A stretch of 64,000 nucleotides of DNA. Source: Rhizobiaceae bacterium. Its GTDB lineage: Bacteria; Pseudomonadota; Alphaproteobacteria; Rhizobiales; Rhizobiaceae. Below, piece by piece: positions 20,468 through 49,803 of the stretch. The translations under genes and the position numbers were made by a program. The notes below the pieces were generated by a model. That model had not been told where the DNA came from and did not search any database. It saw nothing but the letters and a program-made list of their open reading frames with translations. Position 1 is the first letter of the stretch. The number at the start of each line of letters is the position of its first letter. The DNA is taken from assembly GCA_017644105.1 (NCBI GenBank), contig JAEPMD010000010.1, positions 1 to 64,000 of the forward strand. Reading direction: 5' to 3'.

Positions 20468-21514
20468 ATGAAAATGAATAAATTGGGTCGCACTGATATC
20501 AGTGTGAGTGAGATTTGCCTTGGCACAATGACGTGGGGCGGCAACCAAAATACAGAAGCTGAAGGCCATGAACAAATGGATTATGCCGTTGAAAACGGTG
20601 TGAACTTTTTTGATACGGCCGAGCTATATTCCGTCAATCCCGTTGCTCCTGAAACGCACGGCAACTCAGAGAGATGTGTTGGAACATGGTTCGAAAAAAC
20701 CGGAAAGCGCCAAGACATTGTACTTGCGACCAAGATTATTGGTGGCGGCCCTGCTTGGATCCGTGGCGGCGGCATTCCAACACGCGAGGCTGTAAGCGAA
20801 GCCGTCGAAACCAGCCTTGAGCGCCTCAAAACTGACTATATCGATCTCTATCAAATTCACTGGCCATCACGTGGATCTATCGCTTTTCGTCAAAACTGGG
20901 GTTTTGATGCTTCCAAGCAAGACACCCAGCAATCGCTCGATGAAATTCATGACACGCTTCGTGGCTTAGATGATGCGGTCAAGGCAGGCAAGGTGCGCGC
21001 TGTAGGTCTGTCCAACGAAACGACCTGGGGCACAATGCAATATCTGAAGCTTTCAGAAGAGCATGGTTTGCCGCGTGTGGCGACCATTCAAAACGAATAC
21101 AGCTTGCTTTACCGTCATTATGACACTGACCTTGCTGAAATGTCCCACCACGAAGATATTGGATGTTTGCCATATAGCCCATTGGCGACTGGGATCTTAA
21201 GCGGCAAGTATCGCAACGGTGTGGTCCCAGAAGGTTCTCGACGTTCTATTGAAAAAACTTTGGGCGGGCGCTTCACCGAGCGGGCTCAAGAAGCGACAGA
21301 CGCATATCTTGCTCTTGCGGATGAGCATGGATTGGATCCAAACCAAATGGCGATCGCATTCTGTAACAGCAGATATTTTGTGCCATCAACGATTATCGGT
21401 GCAACTAAAATGGATCAGCTTGAAACATGTGTGAAAGCTGGCGGCGTGACACTTTCAGCTGACGTATTGGATGGCATCGAAAAAATTAATCGTAGCATGC
21501 CTTGGCCATATTAA
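20468..21514 (+). CDS. Tas-like NADP(H)-dependent aldo-keto reductase
   Basis: 348-residue TIM-barrel oxidoreductase. The catalytic tetrad is visible as Asp49, Tyr54 (FFDTAELY), Lys89 (LATKI) and His131 (YQIHWPS). The N-terminal LGRTDISVSEICLGTMTWG, the insert after AELYSVNPVAPETHG and the C-terminal STIIGATKMDQLETC resemble E. coli Tas closely, so it belongs to that subgroup; the natural substrate is unknown. It is transcribed alone, divergently from fabD, and ends in a strong terminator. Confidence 0.92.
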   Translation: MKMNKLGRTDISVSEICLGTMTWGGNQNTEAEGHEQMDYAVENGVNFFDTAELYSVNPVAPETHGNSERCVGTWFEKTGKRQDIVLATKIIGGGPAWIRGGGIPTREAVSEAVETSLERLKTDYIDLYQIHWPSRGSIAFRQNWGFDASKQDTQQSLDEIHDTLRGLDDAVKAGKVRAVGLSNETTWGTMQYLKLSEEHGLPRVATIQNEYSLLYRHYDTDLAEMSHHEDIGCLPYSPLATGILSGKYRNGVVPEGSRRSIEKTLGGRFTERAQEATDAYLALADEHGLDPNQMAIAFCNSRYFVPSTIIGATKMDQLETCVKAGGVTLSADVLDGIEKINRSMPWPY

Positions 21515-21538
21515 TGTCTGGCGAATTATCGAGCAAGA

Positions 21539-21575
21539 AAGGCGGCGAGTTTAAAACTCTCCGCCTTTTTTGTTT
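21539..21575 (+). terminator. Terminator after the aldo-keto reductase
   Basis: AAGGCGG-c-GAGTT pairs with AACTC-t-CCGCCTT around a short loop, followed by TTTTTTGTTTTT on the plus strand. It may also serve the convergent chemoreceptor gene ending at 21589, though the minus-strand T-tract is weaker. Confidence 0.92.
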
Positions 21576-21588
21576 TTATCTGATCCAG

Positions 21589-23790
21589 CTACGCAGCTCG
21601 CGTTTCGCGCGGCATGACTGGCTTTAACGAAAACCCGCCTACCATCTCAGACAGATGATCAACATCTTCGGCTGTTTGGTGTGCAAGAGCTGTTGATTCT
21701 TCCACCATTGCCGCATTTTGTTGGGTCATTTGATCCATCTGACTCACGGCGGAATTAACATTGCGAACGCCGTCGAGCTGTTCACTTGCTGCACGGGCAA
21801 TTGTCGCAATCTGTTCATTAATATTCGTCACATGATCAGAAATCTGCTCAAGAGATTCACCTGTTGCTTTCACAAGCGCAACACCGCTTTCAACTTCACT
21901 GCTTGATTTGGAGATCAGTTCTTTAATCTGCTTCGCAGCATCTGCTGAACGCTGCGCCAGTTCTCTAACTTCCTGTGCAACAACAGCAAAGCCTTTACCT
22001 GCTTCGCCAGCTCTTGCCGCTTCAACACCAGCATTTAACGCCAAGAGGTTGGTTTGGAAGGCAATCTCATCAATCACATTGATGATATTGGAAATGTCCG
22101 CGGAGGCCTTTTCGATGCCTTCCATGGCTTGAACTGCATTGCCGACAACCTCGCTGGATTTATCGGTATCCGCTTTGGCTTGATTGGCGCGTTCAGCAGC
22201 TTCAGTCGCTCGCGTTGATGTTTCCTGAACCGTTGCCGTGATTTCTTCCAGAGCTGCAGATGTTTCTTCTAGTGAGGACGCTTGCTGCTCTGTCCGACGT
22301 GCCAAATCGTCTGCAGAACTTTTCATTTCAACCGAATTACCTTCGATGGATTGTGTGTTCGTTGCAATTTTTGACAATGCACCGTTGATTTTGATGATGG
22401 AGTTATTGAAATCAACACGCAACGCATCAAACTCATCTGGGAATTGCTCTTTGATCTCCAAAGTCAAATCCCCATCGGCAAGGCTTTTCAAATTTTGACC
22501 GAGCTGATCAACCACAACGCTGATCTCCCGCTTGGCTTCTGCCTTTTCACGCTCACGAATTTCACGTTCCTTCTCAGCGCGATTTGCATCTTCCTGCGCT
22601 TTTTGTTCCTGCAATTTTTGCTTCTCAACTGCAGCTTCTTGGAAGACAAGAAGCGTATCCGCCATTTTGCCAATTTCGTCTTTTTGGCCAAGAGCCGGAA
22701 TATCGACATCCAGATCGCCATCGGCGAGCTGGCGCATACTGTCGGTAATCTTCACGATCGGAGAGGCAATCAAACGTCCGATAAAGAACGAAAGTGCTAA
22801 TCCAAACAAGACAATGGCGATCGATGTATAATCTGTCGCTTTAACGGCAAAATTCATCTCAGCTGTCGCGCGCGGTCCTAACTCGTCCTGAAACGCTTTG
22901 TTTTCAAGTTTTAAGTCTTCCATTTGCCTAGCAAGTCTTGGTCCAATCTTGTCCAATGTGCCCGTGATAATGCCATTGCGTTCATTGATAATGACCACAA
23001 CTTGGTCGAATGCAGACCGATATTCGCCAGAAATATTGACGGTGCTTTCCGCCAATTCACGACGCGTTGGATTTTGCAACTCATTGAACATTTTTTCGCT
23101 GAGTTGATTGAACTGATCCAATTCTGAAATTGCTCGCTCAGAACTTGCAGCTTCATTATCCACCAGGAAGCGGTTAGCATAAAGTCGCGCAAGCAACAGA
23201 CTGCGTAATGCAGAACCAGCTGCATGGCTGGCCGCTGGATCTTGATCCTTAAAAGCACTATCCATGATCTGTGTGAGATTTTTCTCAGCCTGTGGCCCGA
23301 GTGCGTTGAGCTGGTCAACCAGCACATTTCGCTGCTTCACCAATTCTGTGACATCAGCAAATGACTTTTGATAAGTTGCAATTGCGACACTTGCACCCGA
23401 CATAATGTCCTTCGCATCCTGGCGCGTGAACAAGCCCTGCCCTTCATTGATATATAATGATGTGGCCGCAATGCGATCTGATACTTTTTCTGCAGCTTCA
23501 TCTGTGTTCTTTAAAATGAAGTCCTTAGAATTCAATCGAGCTTCCAGCAAATTCGCCTGGATCCGGCCCATTTGATTGGTTTGGAGCGCTAAAGCGCGAT
23601 AATCTTTAAAATTTTTGTCGGCTTGGTAGAGACCAAAATGGGCAACCACAGCGACACATATGAGAAAAATTAGAATTATCCCAGAGCCTAGTGTGACCTT
23701 TGTGCCCACATTTAAATTAGAAAATTTGTTTTTAAGTCCAGACGACTTTTTGACCACCTTTTGGGTAGCCTGTTCTTGGTTATGTTCCAT
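21589..23790 (-). CDS. Methyl-accepting chemotaxis protein with a large helical sensor domain
   Basis: 733-residue transmembrane chemoreceptor. Membrane helix 1 lies at about 34-55 and helix 2 at about 322-341, enclosing a roughly 265-residue, almost wholly helical periplasmic domain, the size of a helical bimodular (HBM) domain. A HAMP domain follows (about 342-395), then a coiled linker rich in Glu/Lys, a second HAMP-like segment (GDLTLEIKEQF) and the signalling hairpin with the conserved tip [18 protein letters not shown]. The C-terminus ends ETRAA, with no CheR-tethering pentapeptide. No che genes are nearby. Ligand unknown; small organic acids are common for HBM receptors. Confidence 0.94.
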   Translation of the reverse strand: MEHNQEQATQKVVKKSSGLKNKFSNLNVGTKVTLGSGIILIFLICVAVVAHFGLYQADKNFKDYRALALQTNQMGRIQANLLEARLNSKDFILKNTDEAAEKVSDRIAATSLYINEGQGLFTRQDAKDIMSGASVAIATYQKSFADVTELVKQRNVLVDQLNALGPQAEKNLTQIMDSAFKDQDPAASHAAGSALRSLLLARLYANRFLVDNEAASSERAISELDQFNQLSEKMFNELQNPTRRELAESTVNISGEYRSAFDQVVVIINERNGIITGTLDKIGPRLARQMEDLKLENKAFQDELGPRATAEMNFAVKATDYTSIAIVLFGLALSFFIGRLIASPIVKITDSMRQLADGDLDVDIPALGQKDEIGKMADTLLVFQEAAVEKQKLQEQKAQEDANRAEKEREIREREKAEAKREISVVVDQLGQNLKSLADGDLTLEIKEQFPDEFDALRVDFNNSIIKINGALSKIATNTQSIEGNSVEMKSSADDLARRTEQQASSLEETSAALEEITATVQETSTRATEAAERANQAKADTDKSSEVVGNAVQAMEGIEKASADISNIINVIDEIAFQTNLLALNAGVEAARAGEAGKGFAVVAQEVRELAQRSADAAKQIKELISKSSSEVESGVALVKATGESLEQISDHVTNINEQIATIARAASEQLDGVRNVNSAVSQMDQMTQQNAAMVEESTALAHQTAEDVDHLSEMVGGFSLKPVMPRETRAA

Positions 23791-24160
23791 CAGCCTAGCT
23801 CTCTTTTGGCAAAATGCATTAAAGATTGCTCAGCCCGCACTGAAATTATGTAGCGCTCATTCATTGAAACTGGCGAAGTATCACATTTCCCTGTTAGATC
23901 TACCAACAAAGGACGCCCATGTGCGACAATTCGTGCATGTGTCATACATGCCCATTTCTACGTCGCTAAATTCCACAGCATAATGGTCAACAAGTGGTTA
24001 ATTTCGAAAACCAAATTTCCATAAAACAAATATTCATGTTTTAAATATTTGATTTATATTTAATAATTATAAGTATATAAATTATATTACATATCTATAC
24101 TTGGAAACTGCAAAATAGTGTTTTCAAATTAAATCGGCGAAAAACTATAAGTTTTCTCGA
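23791..24160. other. AT-rich intergenic region upstream of the chemoreceptor gene
   Basis: 370 bases between two minus-strand genes, strongly AT-rich at 24000-24110. It contains CAAATATT/AATATTTG with a nine-base loop near 24029-24053, lacking a GC stem. It presumably holds the chemoreceptor promoter and the end of the aminotransferase transcript. No gene is seen. Confidence 0.35.
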
Positions 24161-25378
24161 TCAACTTGTCTTCAAATGCTGGGTGCAAATTAAAGCTGCA
24201 TTGTCTATCGCATGTTTTCCGTGCGCTATATCAAAGTGCATAAGACCCGCTTCAATGGACGAAAGTGTGCCCAATAGCATATGCGCATTCAGGTGTCCCA
24301 TGTGACCAATACGGAAATAACTGTTGATTTCCGGATCATTCATATCCGCCATGCCCAATCCTATACCAAGCGTAAGACCAAAATTCTCTTCCAGCCAAAT
24401 TCGTAACGGTGTTGCGCGTTGATTTGAAATTTTTGCAGATGTCACTGCATGACTGCGAAGAATAGGATCCTTCACGTTCATTATCACAGCCGGGTCTTGC
24501 ACATCAGCCCAAGCATCAAAAGCTGCCCAAATTGCTTTGGCTAAGGTCTCGTGACGTCGCCAAATATTTTCAAGACCTTCTTCGTCGAGGATCATTTTCA
24601 ACGCTTCATTTAAACCAAACAAATGATGCGTTGGTGCTGTACCGCCATAATACTGATAAAAGATCTGCGGATTAAGCCGCGGCTTCCAATCCCAATACGG
24701 AGATACATTTTCAACGCTTTCACGCATCCCCTTTGCCTTTTCATTGGCAAACACAAAAGCAATGCCTGGCGGGGTCATCAAACCTTTTTGGCTGGCCGCA
24801 ATCATCACATCGACGCCCCATTCATCCATCTCGAATTCATCACAGCCAAGCGACGCGATGCAATCCACCATCAAAAGCGCTGGATGACCAACTTCATCTA
24901 AGATCGCCCTAATCTTAGGGATTTCATATTTGATGGAGCTGGACGTATCGACATGAGTAGTGATGAGAAGCTTTATCTCATGGGATTTATCAGCCGCAAG
25001 CGCATCTCGCAATTCTTGCTCGTCAAAGCTCTTGTGAACACCATAATTGAGCAGTTGTACTTCACCACCTAAGCGCTTTGCAACATGTGCCCAGCCCTCA
25101 CCGAATCTCCCACTGGCAAGCGCCAGCACTTTGTCACCCCTGTTCATCACATTTGCGAGTGAGGCTTCCCAAACACCGTGTCCGTTGGAGATATAAATCG
25201 CGACATCACCTTTGGTAAGGGCCACGCGCTTTAGATCTGCAATGACAGAATAGGTGATTTCCTCCATTAAACCGCTATAGATGTTTGGCGCTGGGCGATG
25301 CATAGCCTGCAACACACGGTCAGGCATGATGGATGGACCAGGAATTGCCAACATATGGCGGCCGTTTGAAAGTGTCAT
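24161..25378 (-). CDS. Class-V PLP aminotransferase, serine-glyoxylate aminotransferase-like
   Basis: 405-residue cytosolic enzyme of the alanine/serine-glyoxylate transaminase group. The PLP-binding lysine is Lys198 in AASQKGLMTPPG, the PLP ring-stacking and phosphate region is at ISNGHGVWEA, and the Asp that holds the pyridine nitrogen is in LLMVDCIASLG (about 172). The N-terminal LAIPGPSIMPDRVLQAM is typical of SGA/AGT enzymes. Substrate pair cannot be fixed from sequence: serine:glyoxylate, alanine:glyoxylate or serine:pyruvate are all possible. AAGG lies seven bases before the ATG. It is a single-gene unit with no serine-cycle genes nearby. Confidence 0.88.
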   Translation of the reverse strand: MTLSNGRHMLAIPGPSIMPDRVLQAMHRPAPNIYSGLMEEITYSVIADLKRVALTKGDVAIYISNGHGVWEASLANVMNRGDKVLALASGRFGEGWAHVAKRLGGEVQLLNYGVHKSFDEQELRDALAADKSHEIKLLITTHVDTSSSIKYEIPKIRAILDEVGHPALLMVDCIASLGCDEFEMDEWGVDVMIAASQKGLMTPPGIAFVFANEKAKGMRESVENVSPYWDWKPRLNPQIFYQYYGGTAPTHHLFGLNEALKMILDEEGLENIWRRHETLAKAIWAAFDAWADVQDPAVIMNVKDPILRSHAVTSAKISNQRATPLRIWLEENFGLTLGIGLGMADMNDPEINSYFRIGHMGHLNAHMLLGTLSSIEAGLMHFDIAHGKHAIDNAALICTQHLKTS

Positions 25379-25539
25379 GAAAATACCTTGGCAACTTAGA
25401 CTGAGAATTGAGACGTCACCATAACGGAAAATAACGCGAAAAATAAAGAGCTATATTTTCAAACTAATCCGCAATTCCTGATCTTAAATAGCACGACCAA
25501 CGTATACGGGTGTAACTGAAACAAAATTGGACCAATTCT

Positions 25540-26103
25540 ATGCCCTTTCGTGCACAATCCGTCTGCGTCTCACTTATTGTTGCTCTTGCCGGAGCAACAA
25601 CCTCCCATCATGCTCTGGCATCTGGTGACAGCTGCCGACTGGATTTAAATGTAAAGTTCATCGAAAGTGCGCCACGGGATCGTTTTGTCATATCAAATAA
25701 CTCAACAAGCAATATCGAAATTTTATCGGCATCTCTTGATCTGTCAAAATCTCAAGGAAATTTGATCTTTGACACGGAAGATGGTGGTGTCGGTGTGGAG
25801 GTATTTCAAAAGTTCCGATCTGAAACAGATGCGGTTAAGCTTGTTTTATCTCCGGAAATAAACGATGGCGACAACCAACTAGATATCGCATTTGAATCCT
25901 TTGCGAGGGATAAAGTATATCAATTTAGCATTGATGTTAATGATCAAAATAAGCAGTCAGATCTTGGGCAAATACGTGTGACGGGTGGTGAGCTATCCGG
26001 TGCTGAGGTCACTTTCCTGATCAAAGAAAACGATGCTCGGCGGACGGTTTCAGCATTGTTTGATGATGCCAATCGCTCCCGCGTTCATCAGAATTACGCG
26101 TAG
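25540..26103 (+). CDS. Secreted protein of unknown function
   Basis: Not recognised. The 187-residue product has a clear signal peptide (about 1-27, cleavage near HALASG) and a mature part that alternates short beta-type segments (IEILSASLDL, NLIFDTEDG, YQFSIDVND, IRVTGGELSGAEVTFLI), suggesting an immunoglobulin-like or jellyroll beta sandwich. There is a single cysteine after the signal, so no lipobox. It is flanked by short gaps on both sides and divergent from the aminotransferase; no neighbour suggests a role. Confidence 0.7.
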   Translation: MPFRAQSVCVSLIVALAGATTSHHALASGDSCRLDLNVKFIESAPRDRFVISNNSTSNIEILSASLDLSKSQGNLIFDTEDGGVGVEVFQKFRSETDAVKLVLSPEINDGDNQLDIAFESFARDKVYQFSIDVNDQNKQSDLGQIRVTGGELSGAEVTFLIKENDARRTVSALFDDANRSRVHQNYA

Positions 26104-26301
26104 TCCCATAATTCTGGCGATTTGATGAATACACACAAAAACTTTACATCAATTTTATGGGTTTAATCGATTAGTCCTTGAAAAATGCGGTATAATATAC
26201 CAAGTGAATCTTGAATACTCTGAAACTAAAATACTAGTCGACCAGTTCAATCATCTATATAGAGTTGATTTGAGAATCGTTGACGAAGAAAGACTTAACC
26301 T

Positions 26302-27255
26302 ATGGGTAAATCTCACCGCATTGCAAATTGCCTGAAAGGCGCGTTGATCGCTGATGCTGCATCTCTTGGTGTACATTGGATATACGATGTAGATCGGGTC
26401 GCTAAAATTTCGAAGGCAAACGGCGGATCAGCGAGTTTCGTTCCAGTTGACGAAGCCAATTATGAAAACACCAAGGGCTATTTTGCCCACCCGTTGCGCG
26501 CATCTGGCGCCAATACGCAATATGGTGAAGTTACACATCTGGCGATTGACTGCCTATTGGGCAATCACGGCAATTTTGACGCTGACGATTACAAAAAGCG
26601 TTTCGTAGCCCATTTTGGACCCGGCGGCACCTATATCGGCTATATCGACCATGCAACGCGCGGAACACTCGACAATATCGCTGCAGAAAAAGAAGAAACT
26701 GGAACGGATGATGTGCAAATGCCAGCGCTTGTTGCGTTACCTGCAATTATTGCACTCGACCCTTCAGACGCTGCAAAAGCAACGCGGATTACCAATGACA
26801 ATCCCATCTCTAATAACGCCGTTAAAGTCTTCCATGGCTTATTAACTGCGGTCCTCAATGGTTCAGAGCTTGAAGATGCTTTAAAAGAAGCATCACTCAT
26901 TGGAGAAGAAGAGCTCTCCGAACTGTTGCAAAATGCGCTGAACACCGACGTAACTGACAGTGTTGTTTATGGCGGCGAAACCGGTCGTGCATGTTATCTA
27001 AAAAGCGCATTGCCGCTTGGTTTTCACATCCTAAAACATACAAACTCTTATGAAGAAGCGATTGAATTGAACAATATGTGCGCTGGCGATAATGCCGGTC
27101 GCTCCGTATTCATAGGCGCGGTCGCTGGCGCTTATTATAATGGTGTTGCAGAGCGCGGCATCCCGCAGAAATGGGTTGAAAAATATCACAATGGCGAAGA
27201 GATTTTCGACAAATGTGATCGGCTCGCTACGATGGCTGAGAATTCGACTCTTTAA
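26302..27255 (+). CDS. ADP-ribosylglycohydrolase-fold protein, J1-crystallin-like
   Basis: 317-residue all-helical protein of the ADP-ribosylglycohydrolase (DraG/ARH) superfamily. The opening CLKGALIADAASLGVHWIYD and the C-terminal MCAGDNAGRSVFIGAVAGA correspond to the first and last metal-binding regions of the fold. In ARH enzymes two magnesium ions are held by TDDT and GGDTDT motifs; here the first reads YGEVTHLAID and the last AGDNAGRS, so most of the acidic ligands are gone. The HWIYD opening is reminiscent of jellyfish J1-crystallin relatives. It may have another hydrolase activity or a binding role; de-ADP-ribosylation is doubtful. Confidence 0.8.
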   Translation: MGKSHRIANCLKGALIADAASLGVHWIYDVDRVAKISKANGGSASFVPVDEANYENTKGYFAHPLRASGANTQYGEVTHLAIDCLLGNHGNFDADDYKKRFVAHFGPGGTYIGYIDHATRGTLDNIAAEKEETGTDDVQMPALVALPAIIALDPSDAAKATRITNDNPISNNAVKVFHGLLTAVLNGSELEDALKEASLIGEEELSELLQNALNTDVTDSVVYGGETGRACYLKSALPLGFHILKHTNSYEEAIELNNMCAGDNAGRSVFIGAVAGAYYNGVAERGIPQKWVEKYHNGEEIFDKCDRLATMAENSTL

Positions 27256-27273
27256 AAACTCGCTCATTAAACA

Positions 27274-27304
27274 AAAAAACCCGGATCTGATCCGGGTTTT
27301 TTAT
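27274..27304. terminator. Bidirectional terminator between convergent genes
   Basis: CCCGGAT (27280-27286) pairs with ATCCGGG (27290-27296) around CTG, with A-runs before and T-runs after the stem. TTTTTTATT follows on the plus strand and TTTTTTTGTTT on the minus strand, so it can serve both the gene ending at 27255 and the chemoreceptor ending at 27354. Confidence 0.93.
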
Positions 27305-27353
27305 TGCTGGAATAAGTTCCGCTTTTTGTTGCGGCTTTACTTAGAATTAGAAT

Positions 27354-29171
27354 TTAAGCAGCAGCCCGCGCATAGTTTGCGGAGTGCCCTTGTTGATTGG
27401 TTTTAAACTTCTCAATCATATTCAAAAGCTCGGTTGTGTCTTGTGCCAGAACTTCAGCAGACGCCGTTGTTTGTTCTGCCATAGCCGCATTGTTCTGAGT
27501 CTGTGTATCAAGCTGATTAACCGATGATGTGATTGAAGCAAGTGTCATATCCTGCTCTTTGGCAGAACCTGCAATTTTTGTCACAATCTCGCTTGCGGAG
27601 GTAATTTGCTCAGAAATTCTAGCCAAAGCCTCTCCTGTTTGACCCACGAGCTCAACACCATTTTTAACTTGCGTAGACGATTGAGAAATACGCTCTTTGA
27701 TCTCTTTCGCAGCATCTGCAGAACGTTGAGCAAGTTCACGAACTTCTTGAGCAACAACGGCAAAGCCTTTGCCACTTTCACCTGCTCGGGCCGCTTCCAC
27801 ACCCGCGTTCAACGCCAAGAGATTTGTTTGGAAGGCAATCTCATCGATAACGCCAATGATTTTCCCAATCTCATCAGATGAGTTTTCAATCTCACTCATC
27901 GCAGCAATAGCATTTTTCACAATATCGTCAGAGCGCGTTGTTTCTTCGCTGACCACTGACACTCGCTCTGCGGCATCACTTGCTCCATCCGCTGTTTGCT
28001 TGACGGTGACCGATAATTCTTCAATCGCAGCAGATGTTTCTTCCAAGGAAGCGGCCTGCAATTCTGTTCTCTGTGCAAGATCACCTGAAGCACGTTTGAT
28101 CTGCTCTTTAGATTCACCAATCTCGAAACCCTTTGAGCTGACATTTTGCATCGCGCTATCAAGACGGGAGATTGCATCGTTGAAGTTGTTTTTAACATCA
28201 ACATATTTCTCGCCCAGATCATCACAACGCGTTGTGAGATCTCCGTCTGCCAAACGCTCCAGCAAAACACCAATGGCTGAAACGAATTGAGCTTGTTCAG
28301 CCGCTTCTGCTTCTTTGACTTTTGCCGCGTTAGAGCGTTGAACTTGAAGTTCTTCGTCCTGAGATTCTTGTTGTGCGCTTAATGCAAGGCGCTCGCGAAC
28401 TTTGTCCTGTAGTGCTGCCGTTGCTTGCGCCATAGAACCAACTTCATTGTTCATGTCCGTAAACGGAACAGTAATATCCACATTATCTGTCGACACTTCG
28501 ACCAATGTGTCACGAATAGCATTTAAAGGTCCTGTAATTGAACGGATGATAAAGAATGCAACTGAGGATAAAGCAGCCAGAACAATTGCACCCAGCACCA
28601 ATTGAGTCATGAGCTCTTTCATAAATACGGCACTTAGATCGTCAAAATAGACCCCTGTTCCGACAATTACGCCCCAGGGAGCATAATCCATGGAATAAGA
28701 GCCCTTTAGATATAAGGCACCCTCTTCACCGCCTGGTTTTGCCCACATATATTCCGTGCGGCCACCACCTGATCTGGCAGTTGCGACCATATCGACGATA
28801 AATGTATTTCCGCTCTCATCTTTCACATCAGAGAAATCTCTACCCACCACAGATGCTGTTGGGTGGAAGACATTAACCGCTTGATAATTGAAACCGAACA
28901 GATAACCGGCAGGCTCGTATTTAATCTTGGTGATGACACCAAACGCTTCAGTTTTGGCTTGCTCTAGCGTTAACTCACCAGCTTTGACACGTTCATTATA
29001 TGCATCCATGATGGATAAACTGCTCTCAACCTGCGTACGCAGCATGTTGTAACGTTCATCCGTAATCGATGTCATTTTTGATTGAACCGAGAAGTATGAA
29101 ATTGCGACAAGTGCAAGCATAAACCCAGCTACTAAAACAAGTAACTGTTTGGAAATTGTAAGGTTCTTCAT
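27354..29171 (-). CDS. Methyl-accepting chemotaxis protein with a single-Cache sensor domain
   Basis: 605-residue chemoreceptor. Helix 1 (about 10-30) and helix 2 (about 188-212) enclose a periplasmic domain of about 155 residues with the sCache_2 hallmark [20 protein letters not shown] and the later [15 protein letters not shown]; this family commonly binds small organic acids. HAMP follows (about 213-265), then a linker with a second HAMP-like part, and the signalling tip [18 protein letters not shown]. It ends NYARAAA, without a CheR-binding pentapeptide. It stands alone, with a bidirectional terminator at its end. Confidence 0.95.
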
Positions 29172-29409
29172 TCGGGCGCTTTCTTGATAAAGCTTATAGA
29201 TTTATTTTTTGGGGAATTCGCGTCATGCGGAAGAACCAGCACATCATGCGCTGAATAGAAAATTTCTGAAATGCCAACCTAATAAGCGAAGCCTATTAAA
29301 ATTCCAGATTTTGTTTTGATAGAATAATTAGCCTTAACAAAAGTTTAAGTAGGGCCCGGAATTCTGGGTGTTTTCACGTGATAAAAAATAATCCAGCGAA
29401 AATACGGGC

Positions 29410-29437
29410 TTGCATTCTGGATCATTCGCTGTATAAG
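29410..29437 (+). promoter_or_regulatory. Candidate promoter of the rpsF operon
   Basis: TTGCAT (29410-29415) and TATAAG (29432-29437) are separated by 16 bases, a reasonable sigma-70-type pair. Transcription from about 29444 would give a leader of some 220 bases that contains the structured region at 29476-29544. Confidence 0.5.
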
Positions 29438-29475
29438 CGCACCTATTAACGATCCGGTCTTTGGCTGGTGGCTGA

Positions 29476-29544
29476 ACGGAGGGCAAATGCTCGCTAGACT
29501 TTAGCGTCCCATTTGCAGGTGCATGAAGTGCTCCGGCCTCCCGT
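29476..29544 (+). ncRNA. Structured leader of the rpsF operon, possible three-way junction
   Basis: Nested pairings are visible. GCAAATG (29483-29489) pairs with CATTTGC (29510-29516), and inside it CGCTA (29492-29496) pairs with TAGCG (29502-29506). Next to it GG-T-GCA (29518-29523) pairs with TGC-T-CC (29529-29534). The whole is closed by ACGGAGG (29476-29482) with CCTCC-C-GT (29537-29544). This makes a plausible three-way junction in the 5' leader. It could be an autoregulatory ribosomal-protein site or a small RNA. I do not recognise a named family. Confidence 0.55.
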
Positions 29545-29617
29545 GTCTCCGCTCACGATCATCGCTCAAAACGTCTTTCTTGCCTAAGGCTTTATGCTTT
29601 ACTGGATTGCTCGTTGA

Positions 29618-32569: not shown

Positions 32570-35417
<2,848 letters not shown>

Positions 35418-39130: not shown

Positions 39131-39242
39131 AATGTTTCATTTGATTCATCTTATGAGATGGACGACATTTAAGCAAGTTGTCTTGTGGTTCCAAGAAGGT
39201 TGAGGAGCACCATCGGAACCAATTATGAAAGGGAAAACGACT

Positions 39243-40517
39243 ATGCCAAAACTCAATAAAATCGCCCGCACTTTATCAGCAGCTTTGCTGATCGGCACAA
39301 GTGCGATCGCCGCCGCATCAGCCGACGACACATCACTGGACATTAAGTTTGCAGGTGCGCTTGAATTCACTGAAAACGGCACGCTTTTTGTTGGCGATAA
39401 TCACAACGGCGCAATTTATGCATTTGAATTGCCTGCTGCGGGTGAAGCAACACAAGTTAAGCCAAGCACCATTGCCAATATCGACACCAAGATTGCGGAA
39501 TTATTGGGAGTCGGCGCTGGCGCCATCCAGATCAACGATATTGCTGCACATCCAGTTTCAAACGATATCTACATCTCAGTCACACGGATCGGTAATTTCG
39601 TCTCTCAGCCGGCAATTGTTGCCGTATCACAAGATCAGAGCTTGAACCTTATTGATCTGGCTGCGCTCACGTTTCAAAAACAAGAACTTAATGAGTTCCC
39701 CGATGATGATCTCACTTTCAACGGTCGTCCCGGTGGCCCTGGAGACGGACCAATGGTACGTGATCTTGCCAAGAAGGCCGTGCCCTTAAACACGCTGGCA
39801 ATTATGGATATGGAGTATTACGAGGGTGAACTTTTCGTAGCAGGCGTCGCAACAGATAATTTCCTGTCGTCGCTCCGACGCATCTCCTATCCATTTGACG
39901 GCACGCAGAGCATTGCCAATGTTGAAATGTACCATATTGCCCACGATCAATATGAGAGCCGCGCCCCGATTCGAGCGATGTCAATTCAAGAGGTTGATGG
40001 GGAGCCACAATTGGTCGCTGCTTATACCTGTAGTCCAATTGTATTGGTTCCATTATCGGATATCAAAGATGGCGCAAAGATTTCGGCACACACAATCATG
40101 GATTATGGCAACGGACAGCCACTAGACATGATCGCCTATAATCACCAAAGTCCATTTGGTGGCGACGCGCAACCTACTCTGTTTGTCACGAGCAACAGCC
40201 GTTCACCGCAACTTATCCCCATCAGCGGACTACAAGGCGCAAATGCTGTTACACATGAAGACTTTCAGCGTGGGCCAAAACTGGACGACAACCCGCTTAT
40301 GCCATTCGGTCCTGTGGGCAAAAGTGTGATGTTTGAGGGTGTGCCTCTGCATATGGATTTAGTTGGCGGCGGCTTCTTCGTCTCGGTCAATCGCGATGCC
40401 TATACGGGTAATCTGAACCTTGACACAAATCCAGCTTGGTTTCCGAACCGCATTCACAATCTGCTCGCAGAGTTTGATTTCCCGCAATATAAACCTGACC
40501 CTTCTCGGTTGCAGTAA
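39243..40517 (+). CDS. Secreted beta-propeller-like protein of unknown function
   Basis: I do not recognise a named family. The product of about 424 residues has a Sec signal peptide (about 1-27, ending near AAASADD) and a mature domain made of repeating beta-type units with the NG-x-L-F-V-G-D, D-I-Y-I-S-V and G-E-L-F-V-A-G patterns usual in six- to seven-bladed propellers. It has one cysteine (YTCSP). A longer start at 39225 is possible. The stop overlaps the ATG of the next secreted protein by one base (TAATG), so the two are made together and may form a periplasmic or extracellular pair, probably under the divergent LysR protein. Confidence 0.75.
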   Translation: MPKLNKIARTLSAALLIGTSAIAAASADDTSLDIKFAGALEFTENGTLFVGDNHNGAIYAFELPAAGEATQVKPSTIANIDTKIAELLGVGAGAIQINDIAAHPVSNDIYISVTRIGNFVSQPAIVAVSQDQSLNLIDLAALTFQKQELNEFPDDDLTFNGRPGGPGDGPMVRDLAKKAVPLNTLAIMDMEYYEGELFVAGVATDNFLSSLRRISYPFDGTQSIANVEMYHIAHDQYESRAPIRAMSIQEVDGEPQLVAAYTCSPIVLVPLSDIKDGAKISAHTIMDYGNGQPLDMIAYNHQSPFGGDAQPTLFVTSNSRSPQLIPISGLQGANAVTHEDFQRGPKLDDNPLMPFGPVGKSVMFEGVPLHMDLVGGGFFVSVNRDAYTGNLNLDTNPAWFPNRIHNLLAEFDFPQYKPDPSRLQ

Positions 40518-41788: not shown

Positions 41789-42169
41789 ATGTTCAGTCGG
41801 TTTCCAGTTTTCTTAGTTGGCTCTGTTATTGGCGCAGCAATTGATTATTTGGTGACCTTGTTGGCCAGTAGTTTGCTCAACATCAACCCGTTGATTGCAT
41901 TGGCATTATCGATGATCATCAGCGGGTCATTTGTGTTTTACTTCCATCTCAAAGTTACATTTGAGGACACTCAGGGAAAGCGATTCCGAAGATATATAGT
42001 GTTTATGACTTGGACAGGAGTCATCTATGTGCTTCGCGCGCTATTGCTAGAACTCGGGCTATTTATGGGCATGCCCTTGGCCATCTCGCTTGCTGTTGCG
42101 ATAGGACTAGCATCAATCATCAACTTCGCCTTTTCATCTGTGTTCGTATTCGCTAAAAGACAATCATGA
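41789..42169 (+). CDS. GtrA family membrane protein
   Basis: 126-residue protein with four membrane helices (about 5-25, 33-53, 68-90 and 97-120), the GtrA fold. Such proteins are thought to flip polyprenyl-phosphate-linked sugars across the inner membrane, working with a GT2 transferase that loads the lipid and a GT-C transferase that uses it. Its stop overlaps the ATG of the GT2 gene (ATGA at 42166-42169), and the expected partners lie in the same operon. Confidence 0.9.
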   Translation: MFSRFPVFLVGSVIGAAIDYLVTLLASSLLNINPLIALALSMIISGSFVFYFHLKVTFEDTQGKRFRRYIVFMTWTGVIYVLRALLLELGLFMGMPLAISLAVAIGLASIINFAFSSVFVFAKRQS

Positions 42170-43146
42170 CCAAAAAGACTATCAGCATAGTCATCCCCAT
42201 TTTTAACGAGGCTGACAATTTAGGGCATCTTTTGAGCGAACTTTAAGCCGTTGCACAAAAGATAACAGAAGATTTTGACTTCGATATCGGGTTTGTATTT
42301 ATCGATGATGGAAGTACCGATGACAGCTTTGATATACTCAAGGCTTATGATTTTGGCACGCGCACAACTCGCTTGCTGCGCTTTTCTCGGAATTTCGGCA
42401 AAGAAGCCGCTCTCACGGCAGGTATTAAAGCTGCCGAAGATGCCGATGCCGCTATTTTAATGGACGCTGACCTTCAACATCCACCTGAATTGATCCATGA
42501 ATTTATTCGCATCTGGCAAACTGAGAATGCCGACAGCGTCTATGCCTATAAAGCCAGCCGTCGAAATTCCGAGGGTATATTAAAAGCTGCTCTTTCTCGC
42601 ATATTTTTTTGGCTCATCAATCGTGATTTGCGTTATGAAATTACTCCGGGTGCCGGAGATTTCCGTCTTGTCAATCAGCGAGTTATGAAAGCTCTTCTCA
42701 GTCTGCCTGAAAGCGATCGCTTTATGAAAGGGCTTTACGGTTGGGTTGGTTTTAAGCAAATTGGCCTGCCCTTCACTCCTCTGCCTCGGGTTCGGGGTAA
42801 AAGTCATCACAACATGCTTAAATTATTATCGATGACAATTGCAGCCATAACCAGTTTCTCGACGGCGCCCTTGCGTTTGACTGCGCTGGTGGGAATTGTT
42901 CTTGCCCTTTCGAGCTTCATCTACGGGTTTTATATTGTGATCGAATATTTCTTTTTTCCAGGAGTTCCAGATGGTGTCGCTTCCATTCTTACTCTGATCG
43001 CATTCTTTGGTGGAATTCAATTGATGTTTCTTGGAATTTTGGGAGAATATATTGGCAAATCGGTTCTCGAAGCCAAGAAGCGGCCAATCTATATCATGGC
43101 TGAGGAGATACATCGGGGAGATAATCTGAGTGCGGATCGCAGATGA
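42166..43146 (+). pseudogene. GT2 polyprenyl-phosphate glycosyltransferase interrupted by a nonsense codon
   Basis: Read from the ATG coupled to gtrA, the frame encodes a DPM1/GtrB-like transferase: ISIVIPIFNEADNLG at the N-terminus, FIDDGSTDDS, the metal motif ILMDADLQHPP, then two C-terminal membrane helices. Codon 27 is TAA (42244-42246), giving SEL-stop-AVAQ. The same frame stays open for the remaining 299 codons, and all later motifs are intact. A single base change, a sequencing error, or read-through are the options. If truncated, internal initiation at the ATG at 42373 would lack the nucleotide-binding N-terminus. The following gene starts inside its 3' end. Confidence 0.85.
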
Positions 43147-43879
43147 TTTTGGGCTTGGACGAGCCCATGACCGCGTGATCCTGTCATTGCTCGAGACGGG
43201 TCGCCTTGATGGTACTTCGGTTATGATGAGCAGTGCTTTAAGGTCTGATGACATTGCGAAATTGCAAGAACTGCGCCGGGATGGAGTCAAGATCGGACTT
43301 CATCTTAACCTCACTGAGGAACTTCCTGGAACTGCTCCCAAATGGCCATTGCCCCAAATTTTACGACCCATGCTCAGCAAACAAACTTTGGACGCGATTT
43401 CTAAGTCGCTTTCGGAGCAGGCAACAGCATTTATCGAACTATTTGGAAGTCCACCGGACTATTACGATGGTCACCAGCACTGCCATTGTTTCCCATCGAT
43501 TGCACCTCTTGTGTCCCGCCTGCCCTATGGGCCTTCGACCTGGGTGCGTGCGCCATTGCCAGCAACACTTCAAGGTATCTGGCTTAATTTTCGCGCAGGC
43601 GGTGCCAAAACGCTTTTGGTCATGGCGTATGCCGCAAGAGCGAAACGTCTGTTCATAAGAGATGGGCTTCAAACGAATATTGACTTCTCAGGTTTTCTTC
43701 GACTTGATGATCCTGCAAGTGTTCGTCAATGGTTACCTCGTCTTTTATCATCAGCAGGTCCCCAATGCCTGATCATGCTTCACCCCGGCGATGATACCGA
43801 CCCGATACAATGCAAAGGGCACGCGCCAGCAAGCCGCTCCGTCGAAGCCAAAATCCTGGAAGGTTCTTTAAAAGAATGA
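43130..43879 (+). CDS. ChbG/HpnK (YdjC) family deacetylase
   Basis: 249-residue carbohydrate deacetylase-fold protein. Metal and catalytic features are visible: the Asp pair in RIADDFGLG, GLHLNLTE, and the histidines of DGHQHCHCFP; the C-terminal MLHPGDD completes the set. HpnK and ChbG remove acetyl groups from amino sugars. The GTG start at 43130 is supported by GGGGAG nine bases upstream and lies inside the GT2 gene. Its stop overlaps the next start as ATGA. The likely role is to deacetylate the lipid-linked sugar before transfer. Confidence 0.87.
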   Translation: MRIADDFGLGRAHDRVILSLLETGRLDGTSVMMSSALRSDDIAKLQELRRDGVKIGLHLNLTEELPGTAPKWPLPQILRPMLSKQTLDAISKSLSEQATAFIELFGSPPDYYDGHQHCHCFPSIAPLVSRLPYGPSTWVRAPLPATLQGIWLNFRAGGAKTLLVMAYAARAKRLFIRDGLQTNIDFSGFLRLDDPASVRQWLPRLLSSAGPQCLIMLHPGDDTDPIQCKGHAPASRSVEAKILEGSLKE

Positions 43880-45273
43880 ACAAATTTGGTCTCTTACTTT
43901 TCGGTCTTATCTTATTGCTTGCATTGCGCCTGTTAGCGATGATCTGGTTACCCATTTTAGATTCGACCGAGGCGCGTTATGCGGAAATTGCCCGCAAGAT
44001 GGTCGAAACTGGGAACTGGATTACGCCGCAATTTGACTATGGTGTTTCGTTCTGGGCAAAACCGCCATTACATACATGGCTGTCAGCAATAGGGATGGAT
44101 CTGTTTGGTGTCTCACCATTTACTGCGCGATTAGGAATATTGCTTTCAGCCATGGCGACACTAACAATACTATGGCGATGGGCGCGTTCAGTTACCGAAG
44201 ATCAAACAGCGATTGCCGCCACATTGGTTGCAGCCAGTTCGGTCCTTTTCTTTGCTTCTTCAGCCTTTGTTCAAACAGACATGGTGCTCACGCTCGGCGT
44301 AACAGCCGGTATGGCCGGGTTCTATAATGGTCTGAACGGAAGCCGACGCTGGGGGTTACTCTTTTTCCTTGGCATAGCGATTGGTCTTTTGGCCAAAGGT
44401 CCCATAGCAGGCGTCTTAACGATGACACCTATAACGATCTGGATGTTATGGCGCGGAAGCTGGCGCGACCTTTTCAGATTGCCGTGGATTACAGGTGTGG
44501 CTTTGGTCTGTGTTCTTGTCATTCCTTGGTACGCAGCCGCTGAAATCGCAACGCCCGGATTCCTCGAATATTTCATTATTGGTGAGCATATCCAACGCTT
44601 TCTTCAGCCAGGCTGGTCAGGAGATCTTTATGGAGCTGGCCGCGAACAACCAAAGGGATTTATTTGGCTGTTTTGGATAATTGCAACGCTGCCGTGGAGC
44701 CCATTGTTGCCATTTTTGATCTACAAACTAAGGAAAAATCGAGTTTCGATCAAAGACGGTCTTTACATCTATCTGTTAGCGTTTGCATTAACACCATTGG
44801 TTTTCTTTACTTTCGCAGCGAATATATTGATCGCATATGTGTTGCCAGGGATCCCTGCCGCAGCATTGCTGGCCGTCATATTGTGGAGAAAATCGGGTTA
44901 TAAAGGCGCGTTTTGGCTTAAACTTGGTACAGCCGAAGTTGTGGTGATCTCATCGATTTTAGTCGGCATTTCAATCCTTGGTTTGGATCGCTCATTTGCC
45001 CCGAGTGAAGGGCGGCTTATCGCTGACTATCCCGGGCAAGGTCGATTGGCAATTCTGGGTGGGCGCAATTACTCCTCCGAATTTTATACCGAGGGAAAAA
45101 TCCTCCGCTTTCAAACACCAGAAGAATTAGACGGCTGGCTTGAACCAGGAGATGGGGTGTTGGTGCCAAAATATCTAGCAGAACCCTTCAAGGCTCAATT
45201 TGCGAACGCGCCTGAAGCCTTTGCCGAAGATCGAAAATACTTTCTATTCATACCCATATCAGCGACTGAGTAA
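43876..45273 (+). CDS. ArnT-like GT-C family glycosyltransferase
   Basis: 465-residue polytopic membrane transferase of the PMT/ArnT group, using polyprenyl-phosphate sugars as donors in the periplasm. About ten membrane helices follow the first periplasmic loop, which holds the signature DSTEARYAEIARKMVETG and the catalytic acidic residues. The start at 43876 overlaps the deacetylase stop (ATGA). With GtrA, GT2 and ChbG/HpnK it forms a complete pathway to decorate lipid A, a polysaccharide or a protein with a deacetylated amino sugar. The acceptor is not shown by sequence. Confidence 0.88.
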   Translation: MNKFGLLLFGLILLLALRLLAMIWLPILDSTEARYAEIARKMVETGNWITPQFDYGVSFWAKPPLHTWLSAIGMDLFGVSPFTARLGILLSAMATLTILWRWARSVTEDQTAIAATLVAASSVLFFASSAFVQTDMVLTLGVTAGMAGFYNGLNGSRRWGLLFFLGIAIGLLAKGPIAGVLTMTPITIWMLWRGSWRDLFRLPWITGVALVCVLVIPWYAAAEIATPGFLEYFIIGEHIQRFLQPGWSGDLYGAGREQPKGFIWLFWIIATLPWSPLLPFLIYKLRKNRVSIKDGLYIYLLAFALTPLVFFTFAANILIAYVLPGIPAAALLAVILWRKSGYKGAFWLKLGTAEVVVISSILVGISILGLDRSFAPSEGRLIADYPGQGRLAILGGRNYSSEFYTEGKILRFQTPEELDGWLEPGDGVLVPKYLAEPFKAQFANAPEAFAEDRKYFLFIPISATE

Positions 45274-47825: not shown

Positions 47826-47856
47826 GGAAGTTTTAGAGAGGATTGGCTTCAATTTG

Positions 47857-49452
47857 TTAAAATAACACTTTTGCTTCTTCCTCTTTTAGCCACAACATTC
47901 GGCGCAAATCAGCATCGTAAAGTATGGCATCATTCAATTTTTCGACACCTAATTTTTCGATCAGGTTTTGTTTTTGTGAAAGCAGCGAGATGCCGAGACC
48001 CGCTGCATCATCGGTGATATCATAACCTAAAATATCTAAAATTGTGGGAAAGACATCCATCATGGAAGCAGGTCGCTCTATTCGTTTAGGTTCTATACCT
48101 GGACCAAAAGCTATGAATAGATTTCGACGTTCCATTTGATTGAGTCGGGAGGCAAGTTCTGATCCCATCAGCAAATGATCACTCTGAATTATGACGACGG
48201 TATTTTCCAACAGGCCATCAGCTTCGAGTCGATCCAGCATATTTTTGGCCATTACATTTGCGCATTCCAACCCAACGGCTATTGGTTTTTTCGACTTGAT
48301 CTCGACTGATCCATCGAGACAAGATGGTAACGCAAATCCAGCAGGCCCATGACCACCTGTTGAACTTAGAGTCATCAAGAATGGTTGGTTATTGCCAGAC
48401 AGCTGGCGAAACACCTTTTCACTGTAGTCAAAAACAGCGCTATCACCTAAAAAATTATGAACCTTGTGTGAGCTATAACCATCATATATTTCATCAAAAC
48501 CTGTAACTTTCGAGAATCCGTGATCAAAATAAAATCTTGCTTTACCCGCGAAGTTTCGATCAGCCCCCGTAATATGTTCTGCATGGTACCCATTTTTCTT
48601 CAAAATTTCACCGAGGCATATAGTATTTGGAAGAAAACGGTCACCGGTTGAACTAAGATTTCGACTAGAAACTAGCCAAGGCTGGATCAATGGTACACCG
48701 CAATTCGACGCGACCATGCCAGCGATAGTCCATTCGGTATTTTTCGTCTGGTGAATGTTTATCGCGCTCATGCCCCGCCCTTCAAGTTCCATAATCGGCC
48801 GCATTACAGGGCCAAAAAAATGTTCATTTGCGAGAGTGCGCTCAGCGCTTTCTAGATAGATATGCAAAACATTAGGCTTTTCTGGCTTGTTTAGTTTGAG
48901 TGTTGTTAAAGGCTTATAATGTGACGGTAAAATTTGCTTGCCAGAGGCGCCAAACCCTAATCCTTTTACCGTTTCAACCGACAGTGGATTAAACAAAACC
49001 AAAGGAACCAATGCAATTATGTCGAAGCGAGAGAAAAACTTGCTTTGAGCAACTCCGACAGACATTGCCAACCCGATGATTACAATTCCAGAAAAAATGA
49101 GACCGCTCAGTTCTAAATAAAGATCTGGAATCCCGAATGAAGCAAATCCGTAGATTGCATGATAGATGATTGCCTGAATGTTAAAATCATCGAACATGGC
49201 TTGCATAGTTGCCCAGAATCCAAGCATTAATAGAGGGATGGTCAAAAAACTAAACTGCCGTTCTGTTTTTACCTCACCTGTCAATGCTACACGTACGATC
49301 AGTGCAGTCAAAAACACCAAAAAAGACGCGGCAAAAGCGAATTTTGGAACGTTGGGTAGCAGTAGGAAATAACCCAACCCCACGACTGTCGCGAGCGTTA
49401 TCGCAAGAACAAGGAAAATTGTGAAGTTGGGAATCGCGAAATACTTGAACAT
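47857..49452 (-). CDS. OpgB-like phosphoglycerol transferase (LTA synthase family)
   Basis: 531-residue inner-membrane alkaline-phosphatase-fold enzyme. Five N-terminal helices (about 5-150) are followed by a periplasmic sulfatase-type domain (about 190-500): VLHIYLESAERTL with the nucleophile Thr, WTIAGMVASNCGVPL, and IIQSDHLLMG with metal ligands. These motifs match OpgB/MdoB, which transfers phosphoglycerol to periplasmic glucans; rhizobial CgmB does the same to cyclic glucans. The ATG at 49452 is chosen; a TTG at 49485 would add 11 residues. No glucan synthase gene is nearby. Confidence 0.82.
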   Translation of the reverse strand: MFKYFAIPNFTIFLVLAITLATVVGLGYFLLLPNVPKFAFAASFLVFLTALIVRVALTGEVKTERQFSFLTIPLLMLGFWATMQAMFDDFNIQAIIYHAIYGFASFGIPDLYLELSGLIFSGIVIIGLAMSVGVAQSKFFSRFDIIALVPLVLFNPLSVETVKGLGFGASGKQILPSHYKPLTTLKLNKPEKPNVLHIYLESAERTLANEHFFGPVMRPIMELEGRGMSAINIHQTKNTEWTIAGMVASNCGVPLIQPWLVSSRNLSSTGDRFLPNTICLGEILKKNGYHAEHITGADRNFAGKARFYFDHGFSKVTGFDEIYDGYSSHKVHNFLGDSAVFDYSEKVFRQLSGNNQPFLMTLSSTGGHGPAGFALPSCLDGSVEIKSKKPIAVGLECANVMAKNMLDRLEADGLLENTVVIIQSDHLLMGSELASRLNQMERRNLFIAFGPGIEPKRIERPASMMDVFPTILDILGYDITDDAAGLGISLLSQKQNLIEKLGVEKLNDAILYDADLRRMLWLKEEEAKVLF

Positions 49453-49803
49453 GTGGCAATACTTTCTAGTTTTTGTATATGCCAAACCAATAACTATTAG
49501 TTGTTAAAGCGGTACTTAATACAACTCATATCCAAGCTGAAAATCTAGAATATTGGTATGTATAATAAACGCCGAATTAACCGCCTAACGAAGACGGTTA
49601 ACGGTCGCCTTATCAGACAAGAGCATTGGTAACATAAGCTCGGTGTGACAGACATTTGTCTGAATTAGTTTTATGTGCGGCGATGTAAGTTTTAGGCGCA
49701 GCTAAATATGTGTTTTATTTTATTCAATTTCTAAGAATTATCTTAAAAGCATGCTTCGATATCGGTGATAATATCCAATTTCTGTCAAAGTCAGAGGTTT
49801 ATA
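49453..49803. other. Intergenic region with two palindromes before the PilZ-like gene
   Basis: No gene is supported. TTAACCG (49577-49583) / CGGTTAA (49595-49601) is a seven-base inverted repeat with an 11-base loop, and CAGACATTTGTCTG (49649-49662) is a perfect 6-2-6 palindrome; both look like regulator sites. The gap holds the promoter of the divergent OpgB-like gene and of the gene at 49804. Confidence 0.5.

Follow-up and report, generated by a model that had tools for sequence, protein, structure and literature searches.

In the closest described pathways, the steps follow the order loading, flipping, deacetylation and transfer; NaxD is a YdjC-like deacetylase and FlmK an ArnT/PMT-like transferase. 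GtrB is described as the enzyme that makes undecaprenyl-phosphate glucose (PMC4728340). For the galactosamine of Francisella lipid A, flmF2 and flmK are reported to be glycosyltransferases (PMC4688374), and NaxD is reported as a GalNAc deacetylase (PMC6635527).

A four-gene operon with the order gtrA-GT2-ydjC-PMT is present in the window, i.e. the whole stretch of 64,000 nucleotides of Rhizobiaceae bacterium contig JAEPMD010000010.1 that was analysed, and its GT2 gene carries an early in-frame stop codon. The features of the operon are:

41789..42169, + strand: gtrA-like gene for a small membrane protein, putative lipid-linked sugar flippase (Pfam PF04138, E 3e-14); its stop overlaps the GT2 ATG
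42166..43146, + strand: GT2 gene, GtrB/ArnC-like polyprenyl-phosphate glycosyltransferase by family, interrupted (Pfam PF00535; homologue L022)
42244..42246, + strand: in-frame TAA at codon 27 of GT2, a stop found in this genome only among the 14 matching genomes of 394
43115..43120, + strand: possible ribosome-binding site of ydjC, GGGGAG, 9 bases before the GTG, as read in the sequence
43130..43879, + strand: YdjC-family deacetylase gene, frame intact (Pfam PF04794, E 1e-34)
43876..45273, + strand: ArnT/PMT-like glycosyltransferase gene, frame intact (Pfam PF02366; ArnT NCBIfam model, below its cut-off)

By family, the GT2 product is a GtrB/ArnC-like polyprenyl-phosphate glycosyltransferase. 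The part downstream of the stop matches PF00535 (Glycos_transf_2) with 63.9 bits, and the intact homologue L022 matches ArnC and, over its length, the solved Synechocystis polyisoprenyl-phosphate glycosyltransferase GtrB (sll0501, 5EKP; 230 bits). With this GtrB the GT2 gene shares the GT-A domain and an adjoining gtrA, and it may share two C-terminal membrane helices, but it is interrupted. Compared with GtrB systems, the window operon holds YdjC and PMT genes in place of a third gene of the gtr type. Likened by enzyme type, the operon also resembles the Francisella FlmF2/NaxD/FlmK lipid A galactosamine pathway, i.e. a GT2, a YdjC-like deacetylase and an ArnT/PMT-like transferase, but unlike that pathway it includes gtrA. 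GT2 and PMT further match the NCBIfam models of ArnC and ArnT, which act in the addition of L-Ara4N to lipid A, at E 9e-33 and 1.5e-43, but with 113.6 of 529 and 149.3 of 567 bits they lie far under the cut-offs and are thus not orthologues. All NCBIfam matches (PgfS and ArnC for GT2, chitin disaccharide deacetylase for YdjC, ArnT for PMT) were well below their cut-offs, so that the three proteins can be assigned to a type but not to a precise function. In base composition the operon resembles the surrounding genes, which gives no sign of fresh import. No plasmid record was found to hold the operon, the six records with matches showing short ones only (cover ≤12%), and no Rfam match was obtained anywhere in the window.

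The first-pass annotation had described a stop at codon 27 of an otherwise open frame, and reading of the codons bore this out. From ATG 42166, which overlaps the gtrA stop, the frame runs for 26 codons to TAA 42244-42246 and then for 299 open codons to TGA 43144-43146. At the stop frequency of the window, 299 open codons would arise by chance with p ~ 3e-6, and each of the other five frames contains 5 to 23 stops across the same post-stop stretch. The TAA splits the N-terminal nucleotide-binding region from the remainder of the protein. The predicted metal motif (MDADLQ) and the hydrophobic C-terminal stretches were both recognized in the translation downstream of the stop, the latter being spanned by the alignment of L022 with GtrB. 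The neighbouring genes proved to be intact and overlapping as previously noted; the ydjC GTG at 43130 lies inside the end of GT2, and the PMT ATG at 43876 overlaps the ydjC stop. A frameshift was ruled out, as the frame is identical on either side of the TAA and the relatives are ungapped across the stop column. A restart downstream of the TAA was likewise ruled out; between the TAA and TTG 42373 there is no common in-frame start, and that codon is already past the first strand and the nucleotide-binding region, so that no working GT2 enzyme is expected from it.

A contig scan of genomes yielded 51 loci, 12 of which (L022-L033) formed the full-operon set. All 12 carry gtrA, GT2, ydjC and PMT in the same order as the window, with GT2 identities of 64-68%. 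None has a stop in GT2, and the column of the window TAA is ungapped in every one of them and occupied by six different residues, i.e. it is a variable site. Besides the TAA, neither an extra stop nor a gap confined to the window was found in GT2, by reading of the frame and by alignment with the 12 relatives. In seven further loci (L034-L040) gtrA adjoins GT2 and ydjC lies further off, while one locus (L048) breaks off within GT2 and has the other two genes. A family-wide search with the L022 GT2 as query (1e-80) gave matches in 14 of 394 genomes, and a stop was present only in the genome of the window. The nearest relative, G003, matches window 20500-29563 (83%) and again from 47133 on; its contig ends at both places, and the operon region falls between them. 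A distant GT2 homologue (L011, 26%) showed one stop inside its tblastn match. For the PMT homologue of Sulfitobacter dubius (L068:3435-4773) the match fell into two parts that lie in different frames, which may reflect a frameshift. Within the genus, a related species has at G002:C1:487020-488800 (L003, L107) a GT2 that differs from this one (53-54%) and, after it, a YdjC-like gene (34%), possibly a parallel pathway.

Within the genome of the window, no second copy of GT2 was found, the best other match having 24% identity, and there is one YdjC. Of six GT2 matches, five are free of stops and only the window gene is interrupted. Internal stops were absent from all 137 ABC-transporter matches, which indicates that stops are not common in the assembly. 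In a scan of the window for interrupted genes the GT2 site ranked 4 of 161 stops, a weak result since the scoring had been revised with the site already known; the three stops ranked above it (10021, 36998 and 50401) mark the normal ends of genes, and an ATG follows each of them after 4 to 28 bases.

To assess the age of the stop, positions without variation among the 12 relatives were compared. The window differed at 12 of 156 such positions in GT2, 4 of 37 in GtrA, 5 of 99 in YdjC and 16 of 199 in PMT, and GT2 did not differ from its three neighbours joined (25/335; Fisher p 1.0). The GT2 rate of 0.077 is higher than in any of the 12 relatives, in a set that includes no near kin of the window. 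The fraction of the tree taken up by the window branch was also largest for GT2 (0.192, against 0.159, 0.135 and 0.164 for the other genes); compared with the joined neighbours it was 0.192 (0.153-0.222) vs 0.157 (0.138-0.178) and exceeded them in 9071 of 10000 bootstrap pairs. GT2 is without clear excess decay, and a slight relaxation is possible. From the invariant positions, the 95% upper bound for neutral divergence since the stop is ~2.2%, while the lack of a further stop sets only a loose bound of 10-14%. The stop, if real, is young, at less than ~2% neutral divergence.

Such good preservation past the TAA would suit a sequencing or assembly error equally well, or a change fixed in one cultured clone, the gene of the species then being intact. 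The assembly is a draft of 93 contigs, the rest of GT2 is preserved, and the variability of the TAA column in the relatives means that nothing else marks the site. Against this stand the stop-free ABC-transporter matches and the five stop-free GT2 matches, but they bound the error rate only loosely and are compatible with one wrong base. An artefact of this kind is unlikely on balance, but its chance is substantial.

The preserved frame would also be expected if readthrough or suppression of the TAA were frequent enough to be useful, so that the protein is made, and with six different residues at the column an inserted residue could be harmless. However, none of the 32 tRNAs found reads TAA (58 of 208 candidates were unscored), no suppressor tRNA was found in the window itself, and no relative has a stop at the same place. 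A stimulating RNA structure was ruled out, as the RNA downstream of the TAA folds no better than shuffled sequences (z 0.59). Useful readthrough is accordingly very unlikely. It is extremely improbable that low-level readthrough would let termination efficiency set the amount of lipid-linked sugar, at a surface position tolerating almost any residue.

A switch turning GT2 on and off at the population level had been offered as another reading, and it has a parallel in Francisella, where phase variation has been linked to flmF2 and flmK, two sugar genes for lipid A (PMC4688374). At the TAA of the window, however, the listed repeats include neither a homopolymer nor a short tandem repeat, and the flanking inverted pair (42227-42237/42253-42263) is imperfect and short, with 11 bases and 91% pairing, unlike the usual inverted arms. 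No donor copy is present in the genome, no other stop occurs in the 14 matching genomes, and a single substitution has no known means of fast reversal. The proposal has no support from these results and is highly unlikely.

The best explanation, with a probability of roughly 0.6, is that a recent point nonsense change inactivated GT2 in an otherwise intact operon, giving a fresh, ordinary pseudogene. The operon combines an early stop with intact neighbours, intact homologues in other genomes and no near paralogue; most probably, GT2 became a pseudogene by nonsense mutation only recently, although a sequencing or clonal artefact, as described above, keeps a substantial probability. Of the three readings first put forward, the best supported is that sugar loading was lost very recently, in view of the intact homologues, the lack of a second GT2 of this kind, the single ydjC and little or no excess decay. 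Its corollary, that flippase, deacetylase and transferase would now be stranded, fits the family assignments. Translation of GT2 would end after 26 residues, ahead of the catalytic motifs. The protein families suggest a pathway in which a sugar is placed on undecaprenyl phosphate by GT2, is flipped by GtrA, loses its acetyl group through YdjC and is finally passed on by the PMT protein to an acceptor outside, probably lipid A or LPS. With the sugar no longer loaded, the pathway would be off; we infer the pathway and its acceptor from these families and by comparison with the pathways of Francisella and Acinetobacter, and the loss of activity from the position of the stop. The early stop may have polar effects on ydjC and PMT, and ydjC may still be translated owing to its possible own ribosome-binding site.

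If the stop is real, the operon captures a cell-envelope sugar pathway soon after loss of its first step, with the later genes whole, and could be used to ask how the later enzymes behave when they have no substrate; in other respects GT2 is an ordinary pseudogene. The GT2 case also shows that a preserved frame past a stop needs a check of the reads ahead of any claim of recoding.

Some minor observations were made elsewhere in the window. The protein encoded at 39225-40514 was without match in the three genomes G001-G003. G003, which has 93% DNA identity alongside, lacks the 542-aa ORF at 47857-49485 (window 47828-49713); in its contig, window positions 49714 and 47827 are separated by 43 bases of other sequence. 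Many short matches to G003 on both strands were obtained at 21589-23790, 27607-27906 and 33534-35417, deriving from chemoreceptor-like genes in two orientations, which from reading of their ORFs are putatively of the methyl-accepting type.
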